Below are positions 30,165-42,569 of a DNA stretch of 64,000 nt, one piece after another. The position numbers and the translations under genes are program-made. The notes under the pieces are model-generated. The model was not told the origin of the DNA. It was given only the letters and a program-made list of their open reading frames with translations, and did not search any database. Each line of letters begins with the position of its first letter. Position 1 is the first letter of the stretch. The stretch is from Bradyrhizobium canariense (GTDB lineage: Bacteria > Pseudomonadota > Alphaproteobacteria > Rhizobiales > Xanthobacteraceae): NCBI RefSeq assembly GCF_900105125.1, contig NZ_LT629750.1, forward strand, positions 7,529,001 to 7,593,000, read 5' to 3'.

Positions 30165-31049
30165 TTATGCCCCGTTGGCGGCGAGCCGATAAAATTCCCG
30201 CTCGGCTTGCGTCACATAACGCTCCTTGTGGCGGAGGATGGAAAAATGACGCTTCTCCAGCGGTAAATTAAGCGCGACAAGCGCGCCGGTCTTGAGCAGC
30301 GCGGTCACCACGAGTTTTGAGATCACCGCGGCTCCGGCGCCGGCCGCGACCGCCGAGCGAACCGCTTCGTTCGACGGCAGTTCGAGCGCGACGTCGAGAT
30401 CGGCCGCGGCCACGCCGAATTTCGCCAGCGCCGTTTCGAACACCGCGCGGGTGCCGGAGCCGCGCTCCCGCAACACCCAGCGTGTCGTCTTGAGGTCACG
30501 CGGCGCGACCGAGCGGCGTTTCGCCCACGGATGCTGGGCGCCTACCACCAGCACAAGCTCATCATCGGCGATCGGCTGGATCGCCAGCGTCGGCTCATCG
30601 ATATGGCCCTCGATCAAGCCGAGATCGGCCGTGCCTTCGATCACCCAGGCCGCGACCTGTTCGGTGTTGCCGATGCGAAAGCTCAATTTGATCCCGGGAT
30701 GCAGCGATTGATAGCGATGGATCACGGGCGGGAGCCAGTAATTGCCGACAGTTTGACTTGCCGCGAGGGTCAGGGATCCGCGCGACAGGCCGGCGAGATC
30801 TGCAAGCACGGTTTCGGCCGCGGCTGCCCGCGCCAGCACCGCCCGCGCCTCGACCACAAACAGCCGTCCGGCGTCGGTGAGCTCGATGCGGCGGCCGATG
30901 CGGTCGAAAAGCTTGGTGGCGTAGCGCGCCTCGAGCGCCGCGATCGCGGCGCTGGTGGCGGACTGGGTGAGGTTGAGCGACTGCGCAGCACGGGTCATGT
31001 GCTCCAGCTCGGCGACAGCGACAAAGATACGGAGCTGTTCGAGCGTCAC
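30165..31049 (-). CDS. LysR family regulator (YeiE/CysB-like position)
   Basis: 294 residues. The N-terminal HTH is MTLEQLRIFVAVAELEHMTRAAQSLNLTQSATSAAIAALE (quoted in part), followed by a LysR effector domain with TVGNYWLPPVIHRYQSLHPGIKL. It follows the YeiH-like exporter gene by 10 nt in the same direction, starting with GTG behind GGAG. LysR regulators next to yeiH are common (YeiE in enterobacteria, sulfite-related), so it probably controls this exporter. The ligand is unknown. Confidence 0.88.
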   Translation of the reverse strand: MTLEQLRIFVAVAELEHMTRAAQSLNLTQSATSAAIAALEARYATKLFDRIGRRIELTDAGRLFVVEARAVLARAAAAETVLADLAGLSRGSLTLAASQTVGNYWLPPVIHRYQSLHPGIKLSFRIGNTEQVAAWVIEGTADLGLIEGHIDEPTLAIQPIADDELVLVVGAQHPWAKRRSVAPRDLKTTRWVLRERGSGTRAVFETALAKFGVAAADLDVALELPSNEAVRSAVAAGAGAAVISKLVVTALLKTGALVALNLPLEKRHFSILRHKERYVTQAEREFYRLAANGA

Positions 31050-31059
31050 GCCATCTCCG

Positions 31060-32124
31060 TTACATCAGGGTTTTGATCAGCGTAAGGCTGAAGCTTGAGA
31101 TGAACAGGAACGCGCCGGCGCCGAGCAGCAACGGACGAATTCCCCTCGCGTAAAGCTTGCGAATATCGGTCTCGAGCCCCATCGCGGCGAGCGCCATCGA
31201 AAGCAGGAACGTGGTCAGTGTCACGATCACGCTGCGCGCTTCGGCCGGAATGGACACCATGCTGTTGACGCCAACCAACGCGATGAAGCCGAGCACGAAC
31301 CAGGGCAGCGGGACGCGTGCCGTCGATTGGCCGTCACCGGTGCGACGGGCCTGCCGGGCAGCCAAAAACCCGAGCGAGATGACGACGGGTGCGAGCATCG
31401 TCACCCGCGCGAGCTTGGCGATGGTGCCGAATTCGCCGGCATCGCGGCCGTCCTGGAAAGCGGCGGCGACGACCTGGGCGATCTCGTGGATGGAAGCGCC
31501 CGACCACAGGCCAAAGGCATGCGGGTCAAGGTGCAGCAGGCCGGGAAACACCGGGTAGACGAACATCGCGACCGAACCGAACACGGTGACGCAGGCGACC
31601 GCATAGGCAACGTCTTCGTCCGCCGCCTGGGTTACGGTGTTGGTCGCGATCACGGCCGACGCGCCGCAGATCGAGGTGCCGGCGGCGATCAATTCCGACA
31701 GCTTGCGATCGACGCCGATCAGCCGCCCGAGCTGCACGGTAAAGACGAAGGTCGCGATCAGCGTCAGCGCGATGATGGCAATGCCCCTGGCGCCGACCTC
31801 CACGAGCTGCGACGCGGTGAGTTGCAGGCCGAGCAGGATGATGGCGAAACGCAGAATGCGCCGCATTGAGAACGTGACACCGGGCTTGGCGAGCGCGGGC
31901 GTGCCGATGAAATTGTGAAAGATCATGCCGATCGCAATTGACAGGATGATCGGGCTGAGCACCGAGACATACGGAATTTGCCGAAACGCGAACGCCATTG
32001 CTGCGATCGCCGCGGTCAAGACAAGGCCCGGCCAGACGCTGGAGACGCCGAGGGTGTTGGCCGGGGAGGCCGGGGGAGTAACGCTTGCGTCATCGGCGCC
32101 AATATCGGTGGAAAGGGCGGTCAT
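31060..32124 (-). CDS. YeiH/UPF0324 family putative sulfate exporter
   Basis: 354 residues, about 10 membrane helices. Seen: [19 protein letters not shown], then [41 protein letters not shown] and [18 protein letters not shown], the conserved blocks of the Cons_hypoth698/YeiH family. Members are annotated as putative sulfate or other small-anion exporters. It is first in a two-gene unit with the LysR regulator. Its nearness to the AprA-like module is suggestive of sulfur-oxyanion traffic but not proof. Confidence 0.88.
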
Positions 32125-32352: not shown

Positions 32353-33255
32353 CTAAAGCACGTCGGCCAGAGACTGTCCGTGCAGCTCGATGCTCAGCCC
32401 CTGCATGCCGAGATCGCTGATTTCGCCGCCCATGGCCTTCAGGCTCTCCTCACGGATCAACGACATCAACCCGCGTCGCAGTGCCAAAAACTCCGATGAC
32501 ATCATCATGGATTGCTGACGGGGCCGTTCCAAGGGAATCGGAATCTCCGCCTTGATCGAACCCGGACGCGCGGTCATGCAGTACACGCGATCGGACAGGA
32601 AAATCGCCTCATCGATATCGTGGGTCACGAACAGCACCGAGATCTTCAGCCGCTGCCACATATTGGTGAGGATCTGCTGCATGATGACGCGTGTCTGCGC
32701 ATCCAGCGCGCCGAAGGGTTCATCGAGCAGCAGCACTTTCGGTCCGGTCGCCAGCGCCCGCACGATGCCGACACGCTGTTTCATGCCGCCGGACAGCCGG
32801 TCGGGATAGTGCCTCTCGAACGCTTCAAGCCCGGCCAGGCCAAGCAACGTGCGCGCCGCACGCTCGCGCTGCGAGCGCTCCATGCCGCGCATCTTCAGCC
32901 CAAACTCGACATTCTCCCGCACGGTCTTCCATGGAAACAGCGAATATTGCTGGAACACCATGCCGCGTTCCGCGCTCGGTCCTTTTACCAACTCGCCATC
33001 GACGGTGACGGTGCCTGTGGTGGGCTTGAGGAATCCCGCGACCGCATTCAACAGCGTGGATTTCCCGCAACCCGAGGGGCCGACGATCGAGACGAATTCA
33101 CCGGGGCGCACGTGGATCTGGGTGTCGGTGACCGCCTCGACCGCGCCGTCGATGGTCTCGTAGCTCAGCGAAAAATTCCTGACTTCGACATGGCCTTTGG
33201 CTGTCGTCGTTTGAGAAGTCTTCGCCTCTGTGCTCTTGGCTTCGCTCGGGTTCAT
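32353..33255 (-). CDS. ABC transporter ATPase, nitrate/sulfonate/taurine type (SsuB/TauB-like)
   Basis: 300 residues. Walker A GPSGCGKST, the Q-loop FQQYSLFPW, signature LSGGMKQR and Walker B VLLLDEPFGALD are all intact. The FPWKTVRENVEFGL context is typical of the SsuB/TauB/NrtD group. It powers the permease encoded just upstream. The ATG at 33255 overlaps the permease stop (ATGA). The frame is open further upstream inside the permease gene, but that is overprint. It is last in the binding-protein/permease/ATPase operon. Confidence 0.93.
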   Translation of the reverse strand: MNPSEAKSTEAKTSQTTTAKGHVEVRNFSLSYETIDGAVEAVTDTQIHVRPGEFVSIVGPSGCGKSTLLNAVAGFLKPTTGTVTVDGELVKGPSAERGMVFQQYSLFPWKTVRENVEFGLKMRGMERSQRERAARTLLGLAGLEAFERHYPDRLSGGMKQRVGIVRALATGPKVLLLDEPFGALDAQTRVIMQQILTNMWQRLKISVLFVTHDIDEAIFLSDRVYCMTARPGSIKAEIPIPLERPRQQSMMMSSEFLALRRGLMSLIREESLKAMGGEISDLGMQGLSIELHGQSLADVL

Positions 33256-34154
33256 GTCCGCCCCCAGGGCATCACGAGCCGTCCCACGGCCCGTATCAGA
33301 AGGCTCGACATCAGGCCAAGCACGCCGATTGCGATCATGCCGAGCGCAATGTCTGGGTACTGCACCAGCGAATAGGCTTCCCAGGTGAAATAGCCGATGC
33401 CGTATTGGCCGGAGATCATCTCGGCCGCGATCAGTGAGACCCACGCCACACCCATGCCGACGGTCAGGCCGGTGAAAATATGCGGCAGTGAAGCCGGAAA
33501 ATATACTTCACGGAAAATCGAGGCTTCGCGGGCGCCGAGACACCGCGCCGCGCGAACGAGAACGGGATCGACCAGCGACATCCCGTGCAGGGTGTTCACC
33601 AGGATCGGGAAGAAGGAACCAAGGAACGTGATGAAGACGATGCTCTGCTCGTTGGTCGGCCACAGCATGATCGCCATCGGCACCCATGCGATCGCGGGAA
33701 TCGGGCGCAACACTTCGGAAACCGGAAAGATCATCTCGTGGATCAGCTTGAACCGGCCCATCACCAGCCCGAGCGGGACGGCGACCACTGCCGCCAGCGA
33801 GAAACCGAAGATGATTCTCCGGCAGCTCAATCCGACATGCATGAGGAACTTGGGATCGTGGATCGCGCGCGTAAAACTGTCGTAAACCGCGAGCGGCGAG
33901 GGCACGTTGGTGAAGCGGACGAAGAACACGACGCGGTGCTTTGTCAGCAGATGCCAGGCGATCAGAAAGGCGACGATAGATAGCGCGCCAATCAAGATCG
34001 CGCGCATCTTGTCCATGTTGAGCCGGAACCAGCGCGCGGCGACGGCGCGGAAGGCCACCGGTTGCTGCGATGGGGCTGCGGAAGGTGTTTGTTCCGCCGT
34101 GACCATTGCAGCCGCGGGCTCCATTTGATGCCTTACAAGCGCGGGGCTGCTCAC
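33252..34154 (-). CDS. ABC transporter permease, SsuC/TauC type
   Basis: 300 residues with about 6 membrane helices. The EAA loop is ARCLGAREASIFREVYFPASLPHIFTGL (about residues 210-237), the ATPase contact site. A long cytoplasmic N-terminus precedes the first helix. The GTG at 34154 overlaps the binding-protein stop (GTGA), so translation is coupled; an internal ATG at 34124 is the alternative. It forms an importer with the ATPase and the NosL-tailed binding protein. Confidence 0.92.
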   Translation of the reverse strand: MSSPALVRHQMEPAAAMVTAEQTPSAAPSQQPVAFRAVAARWFRLNMDKMRAILIGALSIVAFLIAWHLLTKHRVVFFVRFTNVPSPLAVYDSFTRAIHDPKFLMHVGLSCRRIIFGFSLAAVVAVPLGLVMGRFKLIHEMIFPVSEVLRPIPAIAWVPMAIMLWPTNEQSIVFITFLGSFFPILVNTLHGMSLVDPVLVRAARCLGAREASIFREVYFPASLPHIFTGLTVGMGVAWVSLIAAEMISGQYGIGYFTWEAYSLVQYPDIALGMIAIGVLGLMSSLLIRAVGRLVMPWGRT

Positions 34155-35572
34155 GTCTTGCCTCCGCTCACGGCCGCTTTGACGGCATCATCAAATCCGA
34201 GGACCTTGCCGTTATTCTTGGCCGCATAGGCTTCGGCATCCTTCTTCAGCAGGAATGGTGCGATATCGCCGCCGCCCACCGCGAAGAACGCCTGATCGGC
34301 GAACAGCTTGATTCCGCGCGCGGTATCGAAGACGTAGGCGACGTCGATCTTCTTGCCCTTGGCCTTGAAATCGGCGTAGGCCCCGAGCGCGCACATCGCG
34401 CTGCTGAAGGGCAGGATCCCTTCATCATCGACCCATACTTCGCCCGACTTGCGCGGATCCGAGATCGGCTTCTTGCAGAATTTGTCTTCGCCGGAGATTT
34501 CGTAGTTCTTGGTGCTGGCAAGCTCGGCGTCATAGTCGAGCTTCATCTCGGCATAGGCCTTGCGGATGTAGGAATCATCGACCCATTTCTTCGGATCGAA
34601 TTCCTTCATGCGCCCGAGGTTCTGCAGCACCTTGACGTCGGCCGCCGCAGCATCAATCAGCGGGGGCTTGATGGTCGGATCCAGCGTCATGTTGCCGCTC
34701 GGCCCGAGGAAGATGTAGACGACTTCCTTGTTGATCCCGGTCCATTCCTGAATCTTCTCGGCCGCAGCCTTCGGGTCGGCGCGCAGCCATTGGTTGGCGG
34801 CGATGACCGCCTTGATGTAGGCGACCACCACTTCGGGATATTTCTCGGCAAAATCCGTGCGGACGACGACGCCGTGCCAGGTCGGCACGTTCGTCTCGAC
34901 GCCATCGAAGATTTTGCGGGCAAACCCACGGAACGGCAGCAGTTCCGCGAAGGGAACGAAGTCGGCATGCGCGTCGATCTTCTTTTCCTGCAGATTGGTC
35001 GAGCCGACCTCCGGCGTCTGGCTGACCAGCTGGAAGAAGTCCGAAGGGTAGCCGTGATCCTGCATCGCCTTCAGCACCATGCCATGCGCGGCAGAGCCGA
35101 AGGGAACGCTGACGAGCTTGCCCTTGAGGTCGGAGAGTTCGTAGTACGGCGAATCCTTGTTGACGACGATGCCGTTGCCCGAGCCCTGCAGGCTGTAGGC
35201 CGCCACCGCGATCAGCCGGCTCTTGCTGTCGGGATTATTTTCGAAGGTAAAGCCGTTCACGATCAGGGGATAATCGCCCATCATGCCGAACTGCAGCTTG
35301 TCCGCCATCATCGCATTGGTGACGGGAGGCCCGGACGTGAAATTCTGCCATTCGAGGTCGAACTTGATGTTGGCATATTTACCAGATGTCGGCAGGTACT
35401 TCTCCAGCAAATGCAATTGTCGGATCACCGTGCCTGTCGTCACCGTGTTCGTCGTGGTGTCCTGTGTGCCGATGCCGATGGTGACGGTTTCCGCTTTGGC
35501 CGGCTGCACAAGCATCAGGGCCAGAGTGGCAACTGACATCGCGATCGAGAGTGCGGGAACGTGGCGGACCAT
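34151..35572 (-). CDS. SsuA-like solute-binding protein with C-terminal NosL-like domain
   Basis: 473 residues, about 130 more than ordinary SsuA/TauA. A signal peptide (ALSIAMSVATLALMLVQPAKA) precedes an NMT1/SsuA-type binding domain with ETVTIGIGTQ, FGMMGDYPLI, and LKGKLVSVPFGSAAHGMVL. From about residue 365 a second module resembles NosL: EVWVDDEGILPFSSAMCALGAY, VAYVFDTARGI, then DAEAYAAKNNGKVLGFDD. NosL binds Cu(I) through a CxxC-M motif that is not conserved here; Cys in FCKK and in AMCAL are candidates. ATG 35572 follows GAGGATGAG; in-frame ATGs at 35578 and 35584 are alternatives. It is first of the importer operon. Confidence 0.87.
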   Translation of the reverse strand: MVRHVPALSIAMSVATLALMLVQPAKAETVTIGIGTQDTTTNTVTTGTVIRQLHLLEKYLPTSGKYANIKFDLEWQNFTSGPPVTNAMMADKLQFGMMGDYPLIVNGFTFENNPDSKSRLIAVAAYSLQGSGNGIVVNKDSPYYELSDLKGKLVSVPFGSAAHGMVLKAMQDHGYPSDFFQLVSQTPEVGSTNLQEKKIDAHADFVPFAELLPFRGFARKIFDGVETNVPTWHGVVVRTDFAEKYPEVVVAYIKAVIAANQWLRADPKAAAEKIQEWTGINKEVVYIFLGPSGNMTLDPTIKPPLIDAAAADVKVLQNLGRMKEFDPKKWVDDSYIRKAYAEMKLDYDAELASTKNYEISGEDKFCKKPISDPRKSGEVWVDDEGILPFSSAMCALGAYADFKAKGKKIDVAYVFDTARGIKLFADQAFFAVGGGDIAPFLLKKDAEAYAAKNNGKVLGFDDAVKAAVSGGKT

Positions 35573-35658
35573 TCTCATCCTCATTCGGTTGGATGTTCTG
35601 CGGTTGCCATGATTGGTTGACGGGGCGCTTCGGGCAAACAGGGACTGGCGGTCATGGT

Positions 35659-35672
35659 GGATTAGTTGCCGG
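35659..35672. promoter_or_regulatory. AACTAAT element, site 1 (importer operon promoter)
   Basis: On the minus strand this reads GGCAACTAATCC, about 90 nt upstream of the binding-protein start. It shares GCAACTAAT with 37011-37030 and AACTAAT with 38123-38149. The right arm of the dyad is poorly conserved here. Confidence 0.4.
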
Positions 35673-35762
35673 GAAAAGCCCGTTGCATAGTCGTTGGGCA
35701 GTTCTGCTGCACAAAGCCAATTGCGTGTGCATCGACTTTAATCCGAGGGCGTTTAGTTTCGT

Positions 35763-36545
35763 TTAGTCAGAGGATTGGCCCCGCATTTCCTCGAGCACGT
35801 CCGGCCGGCAGACCACGATCTGGGACCGTTTGGTCAGCACGATCTTCTTTTCCTGCATCCGCTTGAGGCTGATGGTGACCCACTGCCGGGTCGCGCCGAC
35901 CATGTGAGCCAAATCGGCGTGGGTAAAAGCCGCGGCGATCACGACGCCATCGGGGTCCTCGACGCCGTAGAGATTCATCAGGTGCAGCAGCAGATGCGCC
36001 AGTCGCTGCGTGATCGATCGGGTTCCCAGCATTTGCGCCAAAGCGGAGTAGCATTTGCCTTTGAAAGTAAGCCCCTCGATCAACCCGATCGCAAGGTTTG
36101 GGATCTCGGTTGCGAGCGTCCGCAATTCCTTGCCGGGAAGCTGCACGACGCTGCAATTGCTGGAGGCAACGCCGGACCATTGATGGATCCCGCCGCCAAA
36201 CACTTCGGGGCCGCCGACGAAGTTGCCGGCGCGCCAATACGCCAGCGTGATCTCGCGCCCGAGCGGCGAAGTGTAGAACACGCGGATTCGGCCGCTCTCG
36301 ATCAGATAGATGCCGTCATGCTTGGCGCCCTGGCTGAACAGCGTCTGGCCACGGTTGAGAACTTTGCGGCGTCCTTGCTTCAGGACGATTTCCCGTTCCC
36401 GCGGCGTCAGCTTATCCATCAATGGCGGCGGGCCGCCGATCCATTGCTGGTTTTCGGTGAGAAGCAGCGACGAGCTTGCGGTCGACTTGGCAGAACCGGC
36501 CGTCGAAGGCGCGCCTCCGCGCGGCGCGTTAGATACCTGCAGCAT
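35763..36545 (-). CDS. Crp/Fnr family transcription regulator
   Basis: 260 residues. A cyclic-nucleotide-type effector domain (GRRKVLNRGQTLFSQGAKHDGIYLIESGRIRVFY, in part) is followed by a winged HTH with FTHADLAHMVGATRQWVTISLKRM. The Fnr-type N-terminal Cys cluster is absent, so it is not an Fnr-like oxygen sensor; the effector could be a nucleotide, heme or metabolite. ATG 36545 has GGAGG 6 nt before it. It lies between the importer operon and the redox genes and is the obvious candidate to bind the three AACTAAT elements. Confidence 0.87.
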   Translation of the reverse strand: MLQVSNAPRGGAPSTAGSAKSTASSSLLLTENQQWIGGPPPLMDKLTPREREIVLKQGRRKVLNRGQTLFSQGAKHDGIYLIESGRIRVFYTSPLGREITLAYWRAGNFVGGPEVFGGGIHQWSGVASSNCSVVQLPGKELRTLATEIPNLAIGLIEGLTFKGKCYSALAQMLGTRSITQRLAHLLLHLMNLYGVEDPDGVVIAAAFTHADLAHMVGATRQWVTISLKRMQEKKIVLTKRSQIVVCRPDVLEEMRGQSSD

Positions 36546-36658
36546 TGCCGGCCTCCGGATCATTTAAACCTGATCTAAAAAGCAGCAATGTTCATGCCAG
36601 ATCGCGGGCCTGGACCGCCTCCGGGCATCCCGTCTTGGTGCCGGAAAGCCCAATAAAA

Positions 36659-36964
36659 TCAACTGTCGGCCAGACCCAATAGATAGACTTTGGGATAGAT
36701 GCCGCGGTTGTGCCCGTCGGAGAAGGAGATGTTCAGGCCGTAGCCGAGATCGGCCACCTCCACGATGGCGATGCCTGGAAAGCCTGGGGCAAAGTGGCCG
36801 TCGAAGCGCGCACGCGTGCAATGCGCGCACTTGCAGGCGGCGCGAAGCGTTTCCGCGGTGAGCGTGATACGCCGCTCGTCGGATGTGGTCATCACGAGCG
36901 ACGCCAGATCAGGACTTAGATCGCAATCGGTCACTGTCGGCGCAACCATCGCGGTCATCATCAC
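36659..36964 (-). CDS. DUF971 domain protein
   Basis: 101 residues with a DUF971 core: RRITLTAETLRAACKCAHC, then VADLGYGLNISFSDGHNRGIYPKVYL. DUF971 occurs alone and as the N-terminal domain of gamma-butyrobetaine hydroxylases, and is often found near Fe-S and cofactor-assembly genes. The CKCAHC pair could bind metal. The start may be GTG 36964 (7 nt from GGAG), or ATG 36961 or 36958. It is divergent from the ferredoxin-NADP reductase and shares with it the gap containing the second AACTAAT element. Confidence 0.8.
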   Translation of the reverse strand: MMMTAMVAPTVTDCDLSPDLASLVMTTSDERRITLTAETLRAACKCAHCTRARFDGHFAPGFPGIAIVEVADLGYGLNISFSDGHNRGIYPKVYLLGLADS

Positions 36965-37272
36965 GGCGTATCTCCTCTCAAAGAATATTTAGGGCGTCGC
37001 CGGTCGGTTGGATAGCAACTAATTGCCATCAGCATCGATCGAGCAGCAGTTTCACTCCAAAGTCTGCCGCACCACTTTTGCCCATCGCGCATCCTGCTAG
37101 AACTCACACTTCGCCGGACGCGAACCGTAACGCCACTTCGCGAAAATTAGAAACTAATCGACCGGGAATCGATGTTCAACGTTGCGCGTAATTTGTCTCT
37201 CGCCGAAACGTTCGATCACAGCGCATGCCATGCGCTTTTTTATGATCGAGCGAGCGGAAGGAGAGACGGACG
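36965..37272. other. Divergent promoter region of the redox module
   Basis: 308 bp between DUF971 (leftward) and ferredoxin-NADP reductase (rightward). It contains the best AACTAAT dyad (listed separately) and no gene. Confidence 0.45.
37011..37030. promoter_or_regulatory. AACTAAT element, site 2 (best dyad)
   Basis: GATAGCAACTAATTGCCATC is a near-perfect palindrome (arms GATAGCAA/TTGCCATC, 7 of 8 paired, centre CTAA). It lies 47 nt before the DUF971 start and 243 nt before the reductase start. Its length and symmetry suit a Crp/Fnr-family dimer, but the arms are not the classic TTGAT or TGTGA. Confidence 0.55.
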
Positions 37273-38046
37273 ATGAGCGCTTTTCAGAAGGAAACGGTTT
37301 TGTCGGTGAAACACTGGACCGATTCCCTGTTCAGCTTTACCGCGACGCGCGACCCCGGATTTCGCTTCCAGAATGGCCAATTCGCCATGATCGGGCTCGA
37401 GGTGGAAGGCCGGCCGCTGGTGCGCGCCTACAGCATGGCCAGCGCCAATCACGAGGAGGCGCTTGAGTTCTTCAGCATCAAGGTCGCCGACGGCCCGCTG
37501 ACCTCGCGCCTGCAGAAAATCCGTGAAGGCGACACCATCCTGGTGGGCCGCAAGGCCACGGGCACGCTGATCACCGGAAACCTCATTCCCGGGAAGCGGC
37601 TGCTTTTGCTTTCGACCGGCACGGGCCTCGCGCCGTTTGCGAGCCTGATCAAGGACCCGGATGTCTACGAGAATTACGAAACCATCATTCTGGCACATGG
37701 TTGCCGGCAGGTTTCGGAACTCGCCTATGGCGAACGCCTCGTCGCGAGCCTTCGGCAGGACGAACTGTTCGGGCCAATGATCGAAGACAAGCTGATCTAT
37801 TATCCGACCGTGACGCGCGAGCCATTCCGCAATCGCGGCCGCATCACCGACCTGATCGCATCGAACCAGTTGTTTGCCGAGATCGGGCTTTCGGGGCTGG
37901 ATCTCGAAACCGACCGCGTCATGTTGTGCGGAAGCCCCGGCATGCTGGAGGAACTGCATTCGATATTCACCGGGCGTGGTTTCACCGAAGGCAACCACAG
38001 CGAGCCCGGCCACTTCGTCATCGAGAAGGCTTTTGTCGAGCGATGA
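37273..38046 (+). CDS. fpr: Ferredoxin--NADP reductase
   Basis: 257 residues. FAD-binding motif PLVRAYSMASANHEE, GPLTSRLQKIREGDTI, the NADP-binding LLLLSTGTGLAPFASLIKDP, and MLCGSPGMLEELHSIF. The C-terminus ending in HFVIEKAFVER is typical of bacterial Fpr. It exchanges electrons between NADPH and ferredoxin. The likely partner is the 2 x [4Fe-4S] ferredoxin encoded 2 kb downstream, which feeds the AprA-like flavoprotein. ATG 37273 follows GGAGAG. Confidence 0.92.
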   Translation: MSAFQKETVLSVKHWTDSLFSFTATRDPGFRFQNGQFAMIGLEVEGRPLVRAYSMASANHEEALEFFSIKVADGPLTSRLQKIREGDTILVGRKATGTLITGNLIPGKRLLLLSTGTGLAPFASLIKDPDVYENYETIILAHGCRQVSELAYGERLVASLRQDELFGPMIEDKLIYYPTVTREPFRNRGRITDLIASNQLFAEIGLSGLDLETDRVMLCGSPGMLEELHSIFTGRGFTEGNHSEPGHFVIEKAFVER

Positions 38047-38122
38047 CGAATGTGGTTGCCTGTTTGTTGATCAAGCACCGGGTCTGATTTGGGCAAACCG
38101 ATCAAACCTTGGCATTCCGCCT

Positions 38123-38149
38123 CCGGCGACAACTAATTGCTATCGCCGG
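38123..38149. promoter_or_regulatory. AACTAAT element, site 3, within a longer inverted repeat
   Basis: Outer arms CCGGCGA (38123-38129) and TCGCCGG (38143-38149) flank CAACTAATTGCTA. It lies 64 nt before the AprA-like start. The core is shared with 37011-37030. There is no T-tract, so operator is preferred over terminator, although the outer arms could also form an RNA hairpin. Confidence 0.5.
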
Positions 38150-38212
38150 ACAGTCATCTGAACAAATCTACCATGACGGCGGCGAGTGCGCCGGCGAACC
38201 CAGGAAAGAATG

Positions 38213-39955
38213 ATGGCCATGGATGAGATAGTCGGCGGATCCTCGGAAGTGTCGTGCGACGTGCTCGTGATCGGCGGTGGCACCGCTGGCCCGATGGCTG
38301 CGCTCAAGGCGAAGCTGAAAAATCCGAAGGCAAACGTCGTTCTCCTGGAGAAGGCGAACGTCAAGCGTTCCGGCGCCATCTCGATGGGCATGGACGGGCT
38401 GAACAACGCCGTCATTCCCGGCTACGCGACCCCTGAGCAGTACACCAAGGAAATCACGATCGCGAACGACGGCATCGTTGACCAGAAGGCGGTCTATAAA
38501 TACGCGCAGAATTGCTACAAGATCATCGAGGAACTCGACAGCTTCGGCATTCGCTTTCTCAAGAACGAGAACGGCGATTACGCGGTCAAGAAGGTGCATC
38601 ACATCGGCACCTACGTGCTGCCGATGCCGAACGGCGATACCGTGAAGAAGGCGATCTATCGCCAGCTTCGGCGGGCCCGGATCCTGATCTCGAACCGTTA
38701 CATGGCGACGCGCTTGCTCACTTCGGATGACGGCCGCGTGGCCGGCGCGATCAGCGTCAACACCCGCACGGCGGAAATCCTGGTCATCAAGGCCAAGGCC
38801 GTCATTCTCTGCATGGGCGCGGCCGGACGTCTGGGCTTGCCGACCTCGGGATATATGTTCGGCACCTATGAAAACGCCGCCAATTCCGGCGACGGCTATG
38901 CGATGGCCTATCACGCCGGTGCGGCGCTGGCGAACCTCGAATGCTTCCAGATCAATCCGCTGATCAAGGATTACAACGGGCCGGCCTGCGCCTATGTCGC
39001 AGGACCTTTCGGTGCGTTTACGGCTAATAATGAGGGATCGCGGTTCATCGAATGCGATTACTGGTCGGGCCAGATGATGCTCGAATTCTACAACGAGTTG
39101 TTGTCCGGCAAGGGACCGGTGTTCCTTCAGCTCAAGCATCTGCACGAGAAGACGATCGAGGAGATCGAATCGACGCTGCACAAGGTCGAACGTCCGACGC
39201 GCGGGCTGTTCCAGAAGGGGCGGGGCACCGACTACCGGACGGAATCGATCGAGATGCACATCTCCGAGATCGGGTTCTGTTCCGGACACAGCGCCTCCGG
39301 CGTATTCGTCGACGATTTCGCGCGCACGACGGTACCTGGGCTTTATGCCGCCGGCGACATGGCCAGCGTGCCGCACAATTACATGCTGGGCGCGTTCACT
39401 AACGGCTCCGTCGCCGGCGCCGATGCGATGGAATTCGCTGATAACCACGACTTTGCGGATTTCGATGCCGCCGATGTCGCCAAAGAGCATGACCGCGTGA
39501 TGGCGCCGACCCGGCGCGAGGACGGCATCCCGCCGAACCAGATCGAGTACAAGGCGCGCCGTCTGGTCAACGACTATCTGCAACCGCCGAAGGTGACGCG
39601 CAAGTTCGAACTGGGCCAGCGTCGTCTCGCCGAAGTTCGCGAGGATATGGAGCAGCACATGATCGCGCGCAATTCGCACGAATTGCTCCGCGCGCTCGAG
39701 ACCCAGTCGATCCTGGACTGCGCCGACATGGCGGCGCACGCCTCGCTTTATCGCGAAGAGAGCCGCTGGGGCCTCTATCACCTTCGCACCGATTTTCCGG
39801 AGAAGGATAACGAGAACTGGTTCTGCCACACGCTTCTGAGCAAGAAGAACGGCAGGATGACCAGCGAGAAGCGCGACGTGCAGCCTTATGTCGTGCCGAT
39901 CGCCGATGACGAAAAGGACCTCTACGACAAGCAACGCATCCGTGCCAGCGCCTGA
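38213..39955 (+). CDS. AprA-like flavoprotein (fumarate reductase/succinate dehydrogenase flavoprotein fold)
   Basis: 580 residues. FAD motif CDVLVIGGGTAGPMAALKA near 15-33, then LLEKANVKRSGAISMGMDGL, which matches adenylylsulfate reductase alpha subunits more than fumarate reductases. VPHNYMLGAFTNGSVAG near 385-402 matches the AprA segment with the active-site His, and ESRWGLYHLRTDFPEKDNE (about 510-528) is another AprA block. It is some 60-80 residues shorter than AprA. No sat, qmo or aprM genes are nearby, so sulfite/APS chemistry is not established. ATG 38213 has AGGA at 7 nt; 38210 and 38219 are alternatives. It is coupled with the ferredoxin that follows. Confidence 0.87.
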   Translation: MAMDEIVGGSSEVSCDVLVIGGGTAGPMAALKAKLKNPKANVVLLEKANVKRSGAISMGMDGLNNAVIPGYATPEQYTKEITIANDGIVDQKAVYKYAQNCYKIIEELDSFGIRFLKNENGDYAVKKVHHIGTYVLPMPNGDTVKKAIYRQLRRARILISNRYMATRLLTSDDGRVAGAISVNTRTAEILVIKAKAVILCMGAAGRLGLPTSGYMFGTYENAANSGDGYAMAYHAGAALANLECFQINPLIKDYNGPACAYVAGPFGAFTANNEGSRFIECDYWSGQMMLEFYNELLSGKGPVFLQLKHLHEKTIEEIESTLHKVERPTRGLFQKGRGTDYRTESIEMHISEIGFCSGHSASGVFVDDFARTTVPGLYAAGDMASVPHNYMLGAFTNGSVAGADAMEFADNHDFADFDAADVAKEHDRVMAPTRREDGIPPNQIEYKARRLVNDYLQPPKVTRKFELGQRRLAEVREDMEQHMIARNSHELLRALETQSILDCADMAAHASLYREESRWGLYHLRTDFPEKDNENWFCHTLLSKKNGRMTSEKRDVQPYVVPIADDEKDLYDKQRIRASA

Positions 39956-39990
39956 CATCGCTCGCGACCCCAGCAACAGGAGATCCTAAA

Positions 39991-40224
39991 ATGCCGCTCG
40001 CCAGTTATCAGACGTCCGTGCCGGTCGTGGTCGATGATGCCAAATGCATCGCCGACAAGGGGTGTACCGTGTGTGTCGACGTGTGCCCGCTCGACGTACT
40101 TCGCATCAGCGACATGACCGGGAAGGCCTATATGGCCTACGACGAGTGCTGGTATTGCATGCCCTGCGAGGCCGATTGCCCGACCGGCGCCGTCACCGTC
40201 AACATTCCCTATCTCTTGAGGTAG
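39991..40224 (+). CDS. AprB-like 2[4Fe-4S] ferredoxin
   Basis: 77 residues with two four-Cys motifs: CIADKGCTVCVDVCP and CWYCMPCEADCP. The spacing C-x5-C-x2-C-x3-C, with DKG between the first two Cys, is that of the adenylylsulfate reductase beta subunit N-terminal half; the C-terminal tail of AprB that wraps AprA is missing. It should pass electrons to or from the AprA-like FAD. ATG 39991 follows CAGGAG. The start codon of the HEAT gene lies 2 nt after its stop. Confidence 0.9.
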   Translation: MPLASYQTSVPVVVDDAKCIADKGCTVCVDVCPLDVLRISDMTGKAYMAYDECWYCMPCEADCPTGAVTVNIPYLLR

Positions 40225-40226
40225 CC

Positions 40227-41204
40227 ATGTCGAGCCCGTTCGAATCCTACGACGATCTCGAGGACGCCGACGAGCGTCTGCAGGCGGCCGATCCGGGCGA
40301 GCGGCGCGTCGCGATCATCGCGCTTGGCCATTCCGGTGATCCGGCGGCGGTCGGGCATCTCAGCAATATGGTCTCCGACCCCGACGCTGGCGTGCGCCAG
40401 CAGGTCGCGATGGCGCTTGGGGAATTTGATGGTCCGGAGTCTGCGGCGTCGCTCGCGAAATTGCTGGTCGATCCGGAACGGATCGTCGCTTCCGCCGCCG
40501 CCAACAGCATGGCTGAATTGAAGGATCCGGCGTGCGCCGATGCGATCCTTCCGCTCGTCAAGCATGGGCATGCCTTCGTCCGCATGGGCGCTTTGCGTGC
40601 GCTTAAAGAGCTGAGGCGCAAGGATACGCTCAAACCCGCGCTGGAAGCCTTGCAGGATGGCGACGCGGCGGTGCGCGTGCAGGCGATCGGGGTGATCGGG
40701 TTTCTGAAGCTCGAAGAGTCGATTCCGGCGCTGACCGCCTCGACCGGTGACACCGACGCTCATGTCAGGCGAGCCGCCGTCAGCGCGCTCGCGTTTTCGC
40801 AGATGAAACCCGCGGCCGAGTCGATCACCCGCGCGCTGAAGGACGAGGACTGGATGGTCCGCGAGATGGCGGCCGAAACGCTCGGTCTCAACGCAAATGG
40901 GCTGGTCGCAACGGATCCGCTGATCGCGGCTTTGTCGGACGAATTCTGGCAGGTGCGGCTCAAGGCAATCCGAAGCCTCGGCAGGATGAAGGTCGATCGG
41001 GCGGTCCGGCCGATCGGTGGCTGCATCACCCACGAACAGGCTAATTTACGGAAGGAGGCGGCTGCGGCGTTGGGAGAAATAGCCGATCCCGCCGCGGAGC
41101 CCTTTCTCGCATTGGTCGCGAATGACCCCGATCCGGAAGTCAGGAAGAATTCGCGTTGGGCGCTGCAGCAGATCGCGGCCAGAAAGGCCAACGCCAAAGG
41201 CTGA
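40227..41204 (+). CDS. HEAT-repeat (PBS-lyase-like) protein
   Basis: 325 residues built almost entirely of about nine 31-residue HEAT/PBS-lyase repeats, for example RRVAIIALGHSGDPAAVGHL, VRQQVAMALGEFDGPESAASL and VRRAAVSALAFSQMKPAAESI. There are no Cys clusters, signal peptide or catalytic motif. HEAT proteins of this type act as scaffolds or cofactor-insertion chaperones. Its close coupling with the AprA/AprB-like genes (2-nt gap, GAGG site) suggests that it assembles or docks that complex. It appears to end the operon. Confidence 0.88.
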   Translation: MSSPFESYDDLEDADERLQAADPGERRVAIIALGHSGDPAAVGHLSNMVSDPDAGVRQQVAMALGEFDGPESAASLAKLLVDPERIVASAAANSMAELKDPACADAILPLVKHGHAFVRMGALRALKELRRKDTLKPALEALQDGDAAVRVQAIGVIGFLKLEESIPALTASTGDTDAHVRRAAVSALAFSQMKPAAESITRALKDEDWMVREMAAETLGLNANGLVATDPLIAALSDEFWQVRLKAIRSLGRMKVDRAVRPIGGCITHEQANLRKEAAAALGEIADPAAEPFLALVANDPDPEVRKNSRWALQQIAARKANAKG

Positions 41205-41375
41205 TTTCGCGCGTCAGGATTTGGCAGTCGGGCGAATGCCTAATTTCCCGTCGCCGATTACCATGAATTGATGACGGAACGCCCTGGCTTTCGAAAGGAT
41301 GGACGCAACGGCCTTCCGTGAGGCATCGAACCCTCGTATCCTACCCGGATCGAAGCCGTGATTTCGGAGCAACGG

Positions 41376-42569
41376 ATGTCATACCTGTCTGGCCGCCATT
41401 TCCTGCAAATACCTGGACCGAGCAATACCCCGCTGCCGATCCTTGCCGCGATCGCAAAGCCGACGATTGACCATCGTGGGCCGGAATTCGCGGAGCTTGG
41501 TCTCTCCGTGCTCGGCGGAATACGAACCATCTTCAAGACGGCCAAGCCGGTCGTGATCTATCCGACGTCGGGCACCGGCGCCTGGGAAGCCGCGCTGGTC
41601 AACACCTTATCCCCTGGTGACAAGGTGCTGATGTTCGAAACCGGCTGGTTTTCCACGCTCTGGGGCAAGATGACCAAGGCGCTCGGGATCGAGGCTGACA
41701 TCATCAAGGGCGACTGGCGCAGTGGCGTCGACGCCAATTTGATCGCCGAAAAACTGCGCGCGGACAAGGCGCATGCCTATAAGGCCGTCGCCGTCGTGCA
41801 CAACGAAACCTCGACTGGCGTGACGTCCAATATCGCGGCCGTCCGGCGCGCGATCGACGAGGCAGGTCATCCAGCGCTGTTGCTGGTCGACACCATCTCC
41901 TCGCTGGGATCGATCGACTACCGGCACGACGAATGGGGTGTCGATGTCACGGTCGGCGGCTCGCAGAAAGGCCTGATGCTTCCTCCGGGGCTATCGTTCA
42001 ACGCCATCTCGGACAAGGCGCTCGCGGCGTCGAAAACCTCGAAACTGCCCAAATGCTTTCTCGGCTGGGACGACATGCTGGCGTCCAACGTCAACGGGTT
42101 CTTTCCTTACACGCCTTCAACCAATCTGCTGCAGGGCTTGAAGGTGGCGCTCGAGATGCTGCACGAGGAAGGCCTGGACCAGGTGTTCGCGCGTCACGAC
42201 CGCGCGGCGATGGCGACGCGGCGCGCGGTTCAGCATTGGGGTTTCGACATCCAGTGCCGCAACGAGGCCGAATATTCGTCCTCGCTGACGGCGGTGCGTC
42301 TGCCGGAAGGTCATTCCGCCGATGCGCTGCGCCGCGAAATTCTCAACCGCGCCAATATGTCGTTGGGCAATGGACTGGGTCCGCTGGCCGACCGCGTGTT
42401 TCGCATCGGGCATCTCGGTGATTTCAACAATGTCTCGGTGCTGGGCGTGCTGTCCGGTGTCGAGATGGGTCTGAAGGCGAGGGGCATTCCGCACCGTGCG
42501 GGAGGTGTCGACGTTGCGATGGAAGCTCTCGCCGGCAACTCGCCGCCGGTAGCCCACGCGGCCGAATAA
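41376..42569 (+). CDS. Class V aminotransferase (serine/alanine--glyoxylate aminotransferase-like)
   Basis: 397 residues. Seen: QIPGPSNTPLPILAAIAKP, YPTSGTGAWEAALVNTL, VVHNETSTGVTSNI, LLVDTISSLGSIDYRHDEWGVD and the PLP-lysine motif VGGSQKGLMLPPG. It belongs to the SgaA/AGXT group, which transaminates glyoxylate from serine or alanine in the cytoplasm, as in the serine cycle or photorespiratory salvage. ATG 41376 follows GGAGCAACGG. It stands alone between the redox module and kynU, so its pathway is not defined locally. Confidence 0.88.
   Translation: MSYLSGRHFLQIPGPSNTPLPILAAIAKPTIDHRGPEFAELGLSVLGGIRTIFKTAKPVVIYPTSGTGAWEAALVNTLSPGDKVLMFETGWFSTLWGKMTKALGIEADIIKGDWRSGVDANLIAEKLRADKAHAYKAVAVVHNETSTGVTSNIAAVRRAIDEAGHPALLLVDTISSLGSIDYRHDEWGVDVTVGGSQKGLMLPPGLSFNAISDKALAASKTSKLPKCFLGWDDMLASNVNGFFPYTPSTNLLQGLKVALEMLHEEGLDQVFARHDRAAMATRRAVQHWGFDIQCRNEAEYSSSLTAVRLPEGHSADALRREILNRANMSLGNGLGPLADRVFRIGHLGDFNNVSVLGVLSGVEMGLKARGIPHRAGGVDVAMEALAGNSPPVAHAAE

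Follow-up and report, generated by a model that had tools for sequence, protein, structure and literature searches.

A conserved gene module around an AprA-lineage flavoprotein, a candidate route for the acquisition of sulfonate-type sulfur

Two kinds of described systems come closest to the gene cluster examined here. The first is Asf (asfRABC), which serves the acquisition of arylsulfonate sulfur and is needed for the use of aromatic sulfonates in Pseudomonas putida S-313; it combines a flavoprotein and a ferredoxin with an SsuA-like binding protein (PMC4267179, PMC2864759). The second comprises the adenosine 5'-phosphosulfate (APS) and 3'-phosphoadenosine 5'-phosphosulfate (PAPS) reductases, for which it was proposed that the N5 of flavin adenine dinucleotide (FAD) attacks the sulfur, and of which the enzyme from Methanothermococcus thermolithotrophicus (MtPAPSR; 8a8o) keeps the proposed catalytic residues (PMC10322725). 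In this study, we analyzed nine genes (32353-41204) in a 64,000-nt stretch of the Bradyrhizobium canariense genome (contig NZ_LT629750.1, positions 7,529,001 to 7,593,000), hereafter the window, to whose full length all positions refer. All nine genes are present and open, on the strands given in a first-pass annotation that had read them as an undescribed system for importing a sulfur- or nitrogen-containing anion and reducing or oxidizing it in the cytoplasm. Our analysis partly supports this interpretation, which appears correct in outline and is narrowed to sulfur. From sequence comparison we tentatively propose, at slightly less than an even chance, that the module takes up a sulfonate-type anion and cleaves it reductively to sulfite.

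When 249 genomes of the phylum were searched with the NCBIfam model NF006131 (E ≤ 1e-100), 14 were matched, all above the cut-off and with 1058-1142 bits. Leaving aside the window's own, this gave 13 neighbourhoods of 20 kb, all of which (13/13) contained the flavoprotein, the ferredoxin, the HEAT-repeat protein and the DUF971 protein, and 12 of which contained the three importer genes. A profile scan of genome contigs (alignment A1) returned at least 594 stretches with relatives, not necessarily distinct loci, of which the best 80 were kept; together with the 13 neighbourhoods and five plasmid loci these form the 98 core loci, to which 11 further loci from the plasmid collection (four cyanobacterial, two actinobacterial and five proteobacterial) were added, giving 109 loci from three phyla. 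Since all loci were fetched by the flavoprotein, its presence is given by construction and the partners are the actual test. The flanks spanned 9-10 kb, and some loci were cut by contig ends. The ferredoxin was found at 98/98 core loci and the HEAT-repeat protein at 95/98, with the misses (L052, L093 and L110) falling at contig ends; both were also matched at 11/11 of the further plasmid-collection loci, and the small AprB-like ferredoxin accompanied the flavoprotein at all 109. Flavoprotein, ferredoxin and HEAT-repeat protein thus stay together as one conserved module.

Among the 98 core loci, a GntR regulator was present at 88, DUF971 at 80, the importer ATPase at 79, the binding protein at 77 and the permease at 75 (all three importer genes at 75), followed by the ferredoxin FdxA (19), ferredoxin-NADP reductase (FNR; 10), Crp (9) and YeiH (5). 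The order GntR, flavoprotein, ferredoxin, binding protein, permease, ATPase, HEAT and DUF971 was shared by 52 of them. Loci L035-L039 were counted among the 98 and left out of the structure alignments, and L095 was left out of alignment A7 for an in-frame stop in the coordinates used. As first suggested, an importer is combined with an AprA/AprB-like redox pair and with parts for ferredoxin/NADPH electron transfer, with the qualification that FNR is present in the window but, judging from its 10/98 loci, is not a constant part.

The flavoprotein passed the PRK08275 model (NF006131; Table 1) and scored below the AprA cut-offs, with 154.6 bits for TIGR02061 (cut-off 641.75) and 279.3 bits for the short AprA-type NF005331 (cut-off 557). 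Its best PDB relative was the alpha subunit of the PAPS reductase 8a8o, with an E-value of 1.1e-60 for the sequence alone and 1.3e-77 with profile A1. A maximum-likelihood tree was built on 35 rows, 18 of which represent the family in three phyla. These 18 formed a single clade (18/18; support 99/98), which was sister to AprA and the MtPAPSR-type enzymes (support 100/99); the two rows of the AsfA type and five further flavoproteins of the host were placed apart from it. Several of the AsfA-type and host-paralog branches are long, so that their branching order is unsure, and the rows of the Sdh/Frd/NadB type are paralogs from the host genome without individual typing. The flavoprotein accordingly lies outside the rows of the fumarate reductase and L-aspartate oxidase type, the placement on which the first-pass annotation had made its reading depend.

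At the position of Arg265 of Archaeoglobus fulgidus AprA (numbered by counting along our alignment), Leu was found in 18/18 family rows and Arg in 10/10 Apr rows. We take this Arg and His398 to be catalytic in AprA. The His (GSH/GGH motif) and Asn positions of AprA and PAPSR were kept in all 18 family rows. The motifs INPL(I/M/V)KD and (S/G)GHSA were present at 109/109 loci, the AprA-type motif R(F/V/T)KD(G/V) at 0/109, and KVHHxGxYVLPMPxG, INPLIKDYNG and DYWSGQMM were invariant in the family. In an alignment with 1nek, the positions of SdhA His242, Arg286 and Arg399 corresponded to Asn, Gly and a gap, the Arg loop being absent. Where MtPAPSR has its FAD-binding Trp, Trp206 (PMC10322725), the family has Tyr. 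Because the Arg of AprA is replaced by Leu at 109/109 loci, the flavoprotein is not APS reductase itself, the enzyme used by sulfate-reducing microbes, but is distantly related to it. Judging from these alignments, it is probably a third branch of the AprA lineage that acts on another substrate, and it is not a fumarate reductase, so its database name is wrong. The module further differs from AprAB and MtPAPSR in having an importer, a HEAT-repeat protein and DUF971. As had been noted for the surroundings of the cluster, sat is missing: no Sat (PF01747) match was found in the entire host genome, which also had no AprA match at E ≤ 1e-150.

A CWxC motif was found in the ferredoxin at 109/109 loci and the complete 8-Cys pattern in 103 of the 109 aligned stretches. 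Its Trp aligns with that of Desulfovibrio gigas AprB; the presumed equivalent in MtPAPSR is Trp42, for which a part in electron transfer was proposed (PMC10322725). In the actinobacterium Tsukamurella, the flavoprotein and the HEAT-repeat protein are fused into one protein of 893 aa, which is evidence that both work together; a flavoprotein-HEAT fusion is also what PRK13800 describes, and both PRK13800 and PRK08275 are names without an assigned pathway. At the four cyanobacterial loci, a gene for Mrp/NBP35, an iron-sulfur (Fe-S) carrier of the NUBPL type, follows the HEAT gene and no DUF971 match was found, in line with DUF971 acting in [4Fe-4S] maturation. The DUF971 protein is a possible Fe-S maturation helper.

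Asf resembles the module in that an SsuA-type binding protein, a flavoprotein of the Frd superfamily and a dicluster ferredoxin are clustered. However, the presumed AsfA of C. metallidurans, a row inferred from gene position in NC_007974 and not from an annotated record, is only 25% identical to the window flavoprotein over 421 residues and falls into a different tree clade, and the presumed Asf ferredoxin of the same organism lacks the AprB Trp that the module ferredoxin has. The Asf regulator is of the LysR type (PMC4267179, PMC2864759), whereas the module in the window has Crp/Fnr. Moreover, the host carries an Asf-like pair of its own at ~2.3717-2.3736 Mb (L145:7674-9616), consisting of a flavoprotein and a 106-aa ferredoxin and flanked, as read from open reading frames, by genes for two monooxygenases of the luciferase-like (LLM) type, an acyl-CoA-dehydrogenase-like, a flavin-reductase-like and an SsuA-like protein. 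Given the distance from AsfA, the separate clade, the ferredoxin difference and this second locus, we consider the module as parallel to Asf and not as a copy of it. We recognized no description of the cluster in the open-licence literature, which is weak evidence of absence; the label 'undescribed' therefore holds in that limited sense, but a module of this kind is already known in Asf.

The importer gives an indication of the substrate. Its binding protein is closest to TauA/SsuA both by sequence and by fold, with a modest margin, as nitrate and bicarbonate binders follow close behind, and it remains below the SsuA cut-off (TIGR01728; 121.2 bits against 163.5) as well as that of TauA. In contrast to the SsuABC/TauABC importers, it has a NosL-like C-terminus, whose match is marginal (PF05573 at 24.5 bits, where the cut-off is 24; NosL chain 7og7, E 4.1e-4) and whose two Cys occur in 5/13 rows, namely in five of the six alphaproteobacterial ones, with L033 as the exception. 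A further difference from these importers is that no gene of the SsuD, SsuE or TauD type is found among the nine. For the ATPase and the permease, the best NCBIfam matches were SaoA and SaoP, under the cut-offs. The SsuA/TauA match together with the YeiH and TauE/SafE neighbours described below narrows the substrate to sulfur; of the sulfur- or nitrogen-containing anion in the first-pass annotation, the nitrogen part was dropped. The host also has two PF01507 genes ~4 kb apart at 6.09 Mb, which we read as its CysH/CysD region. In Nostoc (L123:15989-21420) and Methylocystis (L128:14925-17110), genes for a GNAT acetyltransferase and an amidase adjoin the module, which may hint that the substrate bears an amide or amine.

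Sulfite-related genes accompany the cluster in a subset of genomes. In Salmonella, YeiE binds sulfite and YeiH confers sulfite resistance (PMC12880088). A LysR regulator and a PF03601 transporter on the strand of the importer operon in the window, the transporter gene and the end of the ATPase gene being 228 bases apart, match these two families best but score under the equivalog and subfamily cut-offs: the LysR protein also reached 214.2 bits (cut-off 250) with its second-best family, the selenium-associated NF040786, and the transporter passed PF03601 (279.7 against 24.5) and not TIGR00698 (207.2 against 232.6). A YeiH-type gene, of which there is about one copy per genome, lay within 10 kb of the cluster in 6/99 places (the 98 loci and the window), compared with 0.36 expected (P 1.9e-6), or in 5/98 when one repeated layout was counted once (P 3e-5). 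TauD was found nearby at 6/98 loci (1.55 expected; P 0.005). These neighbour statistics ignore shared descent, except for the single repeated YeiH layout, and TauD and LLM were sought with few seed proteins only. Background densities came from 39 genomes, namely the 14 NF006131 genomes and 25 of 80 named loci. Since the 39 were chosen after some neighbourhoods were known and include every known YeiH locus, as well as several loci known for TauD or LLM, figures computed on them are too favourable. We therefore set aside those for YeiH (6/39, 0.145 expected, 0/400,000 simulations) in favour of the recount given above, which covers all 98 loci, plus the window for YeiH, with densities from the 39 genomes, and discarded as biased those for TauD (4/39, P 0.002) and LLM (2/39, P 0.34). 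Individual loci show similar neighbours: YeiH and TauE/SafE follow directly downstream of the module on three of the four cyanobacterial plasmids, TauE/SafE lies upstream of it in Aquabacterium, and in Sinorhizobium americanum the cluster is adjoined by SfnB, SsuD, TauD and importers for sulfate and sulfonates. At four Paraburkholderia/Burkholderia loci (L061, L066, L075 and L106), we also noted a gene for an LLM-type monooxygenase on the opposite strand, ~1.2 kb upstream of the flavoprotein and ahead of the unit that the latter forms with GntR.

In the mechanism that we propose, the module would be a self-contained unit for acquiring sulfur: the SsuA/TauA-type ATP-binding cassette importer would bring in R-SO3-, with R being a carbon, thiol or amine group, and the AprAB-lineage heteromer of FAD flavoprotein and AprB-like ferredoxin would give this substrate two electrons at the flavin, in the cytoplasm. 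By analogy to APS/PAPS reductase, FAD would attack the sulfonyl sulfur and sulfite would be released. Electrons would pass from NADPH to FNR and then, through FdxA at loci that have it, to the AprB-like ferredoxin, from whose Trp they would reach FAD. The sulfite would enter the ordinary assimilatory route, any surplus being handled by transporters of the YeiH/TauE type. The flavoprotein could have the HEAT-repeat protein as its scaffold or assembly partner, [4Fe-4S] maturation would be the task of DUF971 (in cyanobacteria, of Mrp), and Crp/Fnr (GntR or LysR in other lineages) would switch the module on. Of this scheme, we infer what class of substrate is used, what product is formed and that the reaction runs reductively, as well as what HEAT, DUF971 and NosL do. 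To our knowledge, the established assimilatory desulfonations known in aerobes all use oxygen; that the flavoprotein forms a third branch of the APS-reductase lineage performing reductive, oxygen-independent desulfonation, in which R-SO3- is split by NADPH, ferredoxin and FAD and sulfite is given off, seems to us possible, if clearly short of probable.

Several observations weigh against reductive cleavage of an imported sulfonate. Reductively cleaving an unactivated C-S bond would be chemically demanding, and with the conserved Arg of AprA missing, an attack of FAD on the sulfur is not assured. The predicted flavoprotein model is of low confidence (pLDDT 67.4), so alignments were used instead to read the active site. 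All of the importer genes are missing from 17/98 loci, FNR from 88/98 and DUF971 from 18/98, the latter also from L127, L128, L130 and L144, where no Mrp was seen. As for the neighbours, the YeiH cases are related (4/6 are from Bradyrhizobium), YeiH or TauE/SafE occurs at only 11/109 loci, LLM monooxygenases are not enriched (5/98 against 3.3 expected, P 0.23), and any match to TauD, LLM, acyl-CoA-dehydrogenase-like or extra SsuA-like proteins was found, with the seeds used, at only 15/98 loci.

The main alternative is that flavoprotein and ferredoxin are the electron arm of an oxygenase encoded elsewhere (SsuD/LLM or TauD), which would cleave the imported sulfonate. An electron-transfer role was proposed for AsfA/AsfB (PMC2864759), TauD is over-represented nearby as reported above, and TauD, SsuD or LLM genes adjoin some of the clusters. 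On the other hand, there is no constant oxygenase, the fetched flanks containing TauD or LLM at 10/98 loci and LLM not being enriched; the flavoprotein, with its highly conserved motifs, falls into the AprA lineage, which is catalytic, and not into the AsfA-type clade; and the host has its separate Asf-like locus with oxygenase-like reading frames. We therefore regard an oxygenase arm as unlikely, though it deserves serious consideration.

AprAB is reversible and works oxidatively in sulfur oxidizers. An oxidative AprA-like enzyme might accordingly consume sulfite, joining it to an acceptor, either imported or cellular, while the electrons go to ferredoxin and NADP+, as a detoxification together with YeiH. 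The YeiE/YeiH-type neighbours are a signature of sulfite stress, and FNR could run towards NADP+, but an SsuA/TauA-type importer, with its binding protein at 77/98 loci, suggests scavenging, and the host has no Sat and the family has lost the AprA Arg, which makes sulfite consumption improbable in our view. We also hold it to be quite improbable that the module takes up and redox-processes a metal-bound or metalloid species, with the NosL-like tail handling the metal: the NosL match, the SaoA/SaoP matches and the selenium-associated family as second best for LysR would agree with this, but the NCBIfam scores of SaoA/SaoP and the selenium LysR are all under the cut-offs, the tail Cys pair occurs in 5/13 rows only and the best fold match is SsuA/TauA. 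PP_0206, annotated as a ferredoxin, may be the P. putida member of the ferredoxin family described here. In favour of a metal-bound species, PP_0206 was up 7.5-8.5-fold at 1.5-2.5 mM zinc in the zinc transcriptome of P. putida KT2440 (PMC6066579). An ordinary enzyme of the fumarate reductase/succinate dehydrogenase type, which the name of PRK08275 and the shared fold superfamily would suggest, is highly improbable given that the tree sets the flavoprotein beside AprA and away from the remaining host flavoproteins of this superfamily, that the SdhA substrate positions are not kept and that no FrdB/C/D-type genes are found among the nine.

Beyond its proteins, the cluster is marked by a dyad element, which had been seen at three promoters. 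The sequence GCAACTAATTGC occurs exactly at 37015-37026, between genes and before the FNR gene, and recurs with one mismatch and with three mismatches at two further intergenic positions (Table 1), in agreement with that observation. Ten related alphaproteobacterial loci were scanned; at seven of them, a site with no more than one mismatch lay inside the cluster and outside its core genes, and L033, L037 and L109 had 2-mismatch sites only; 2-mismatch sites of the sequence GCAACTAATCGA precede the binding-protein gene in L029, L030, L031 and L036. Extending the count to eight whole genomes (~48.6 Mb), we found 10 occurrences of CAACTAATTGCYR, 10/10 inside this cluster, and none of its reversed control; two of the eight genomes (G028 and G012) had no copy. 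The dyad is thus a real element, private to the cluster and beyond chance. The Crp/Fnr protein, which, as had been stated, lacks an N-terminal [4Fe-4S] Cys cluster in its sequence, may be what binds it, a pairing that we infer. Its putative role as the one regulator of the system holds only for part of the Alphaproteobacteria; elsewhere GntR takes this place (88/98 loci, compared with 9/98 for Crp), and three cyanobacterial plasmids carry a LysR. In Pseudanabaena (L124:5649-7661, minus strand), the LysR protein has 671 aa and an NMT1/SsuA-like match C-terminal to the LysR domain, as if the regulator carried its own binding-protein sensor; L125 and L126 have LysR genes of similar size, with the L124 protein alone having been scanned.

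Table 1. Features of the module and its immediate surroundings in the window.
Feature	Position	Strand	Basis
LysR regulator, YeiE-like	30165..31049	-	NF040889 YeiE 232.8 bits (cut-off 480), best of 55 families
YeiH/PSE-type transporter (PF03601)	31060..32124	-	PF03601 279.7 bits
SsuB/TauB-type ATPase of importer	32353..33261	-	Open reading frame and family matches
SsuC/TauC-type permease	33252..34154	-	Family matches
SsuA/TauA-type (SsuA/NMT1) binding protein with C-terminal NosL-like domain	34151..35584	-	PF05573 match
Weak dyad copy upstream of binding-protein gene	35658..35669	-	3 mismatches to GCAACTAATTGC
Crp/Fnr-family regulator without Fnr Cys cluster	35763..36563	-	Family match and sequence
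DUF971 (GBBH-like_N) protein	36659..36964	-	PF06155
Dyad GATAGCAACTAATTGCCATC between DUF971 and FNR	37011..37030	.	GCAACTAATTGC scan
Ferredoxin-NADP reductase-type protein (FNR)	37273..38046	+	PRK10926 139.6 bits (cut-off 390)
Dyad ACAACTAATTGC upstream of flavoprotein	38129..38140	.	1 mismatch to GCAACTAATTGC
AprA-lineage FAD flavoprotein (NCBIfam PRK08275)	38210..39955	+	1058.3 bits (cut-off 587)
AprB-like dicluster [4Fe-4S] ferredoxin with AprB Trp (CWYC)	39991..40224	+	Cys/Trp pattern
HEAT-repeat protein, ATG start 40227	40227..41204	+	Matches C-terminal part of PRK13800

For the flavoprotein, ATG 38210 is a more likely start than the GTG at 38186 with which the open reading frame was listed. 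Directly 3' of the HEAT gene lies a gene for a class V aminotransferase (41358-42569, plus strand) that is closest to BhcA (436.9 bits, cut-off 650) and had no match in the 13 related 20-kb neighbourhoods. Some further loci and records drew our attention. On pMLa of Mesorhizobium japonicum (L037:13233-14873), binding protein and permease were unmatched within 22 kb around the module, and an IS110 transposase adjoins a short Crp/Fnr gene of ~134 aa. On pTcM1 of A. caldus (L038:10574-14035), FdxA is followed by a 1153-aa protein annotated as FAD-dependent oxidoreductase, with Pyr_redox_2 as its only Pfam match. Finally, two records named Acinetobacter phage MD-2021a (CAKLQF020000010.1 and CAKLQH020000018.1) encode a flavoprotein that is 63% identical to that of the window; both may be host contigs filed as phage.

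More than 95% of soil sulfur is organic, with sulfate esters and sulfonates as major forms (PMC4267179). The module described here, matched in at least 594 genome stretches that are not necessarily distinct loci, and misnamed in the databases, is a concrete candidate for an unassigned route of sulfur acquisition, and there is a real chance that it represents a new type of enzyme chemistry. If our proposal is correct, common soil, plant-associated and cyanobacterial species would have an unrecognized route to sulfur, and, should the cleavage indeed be reductive, desulfonation would no longer need oxygen. At the same time, the APS/PAPS reductases would gain a sister enzyme in which Arg is replaced by Leu, a natural experiment on flavin-sulfite chemistry.

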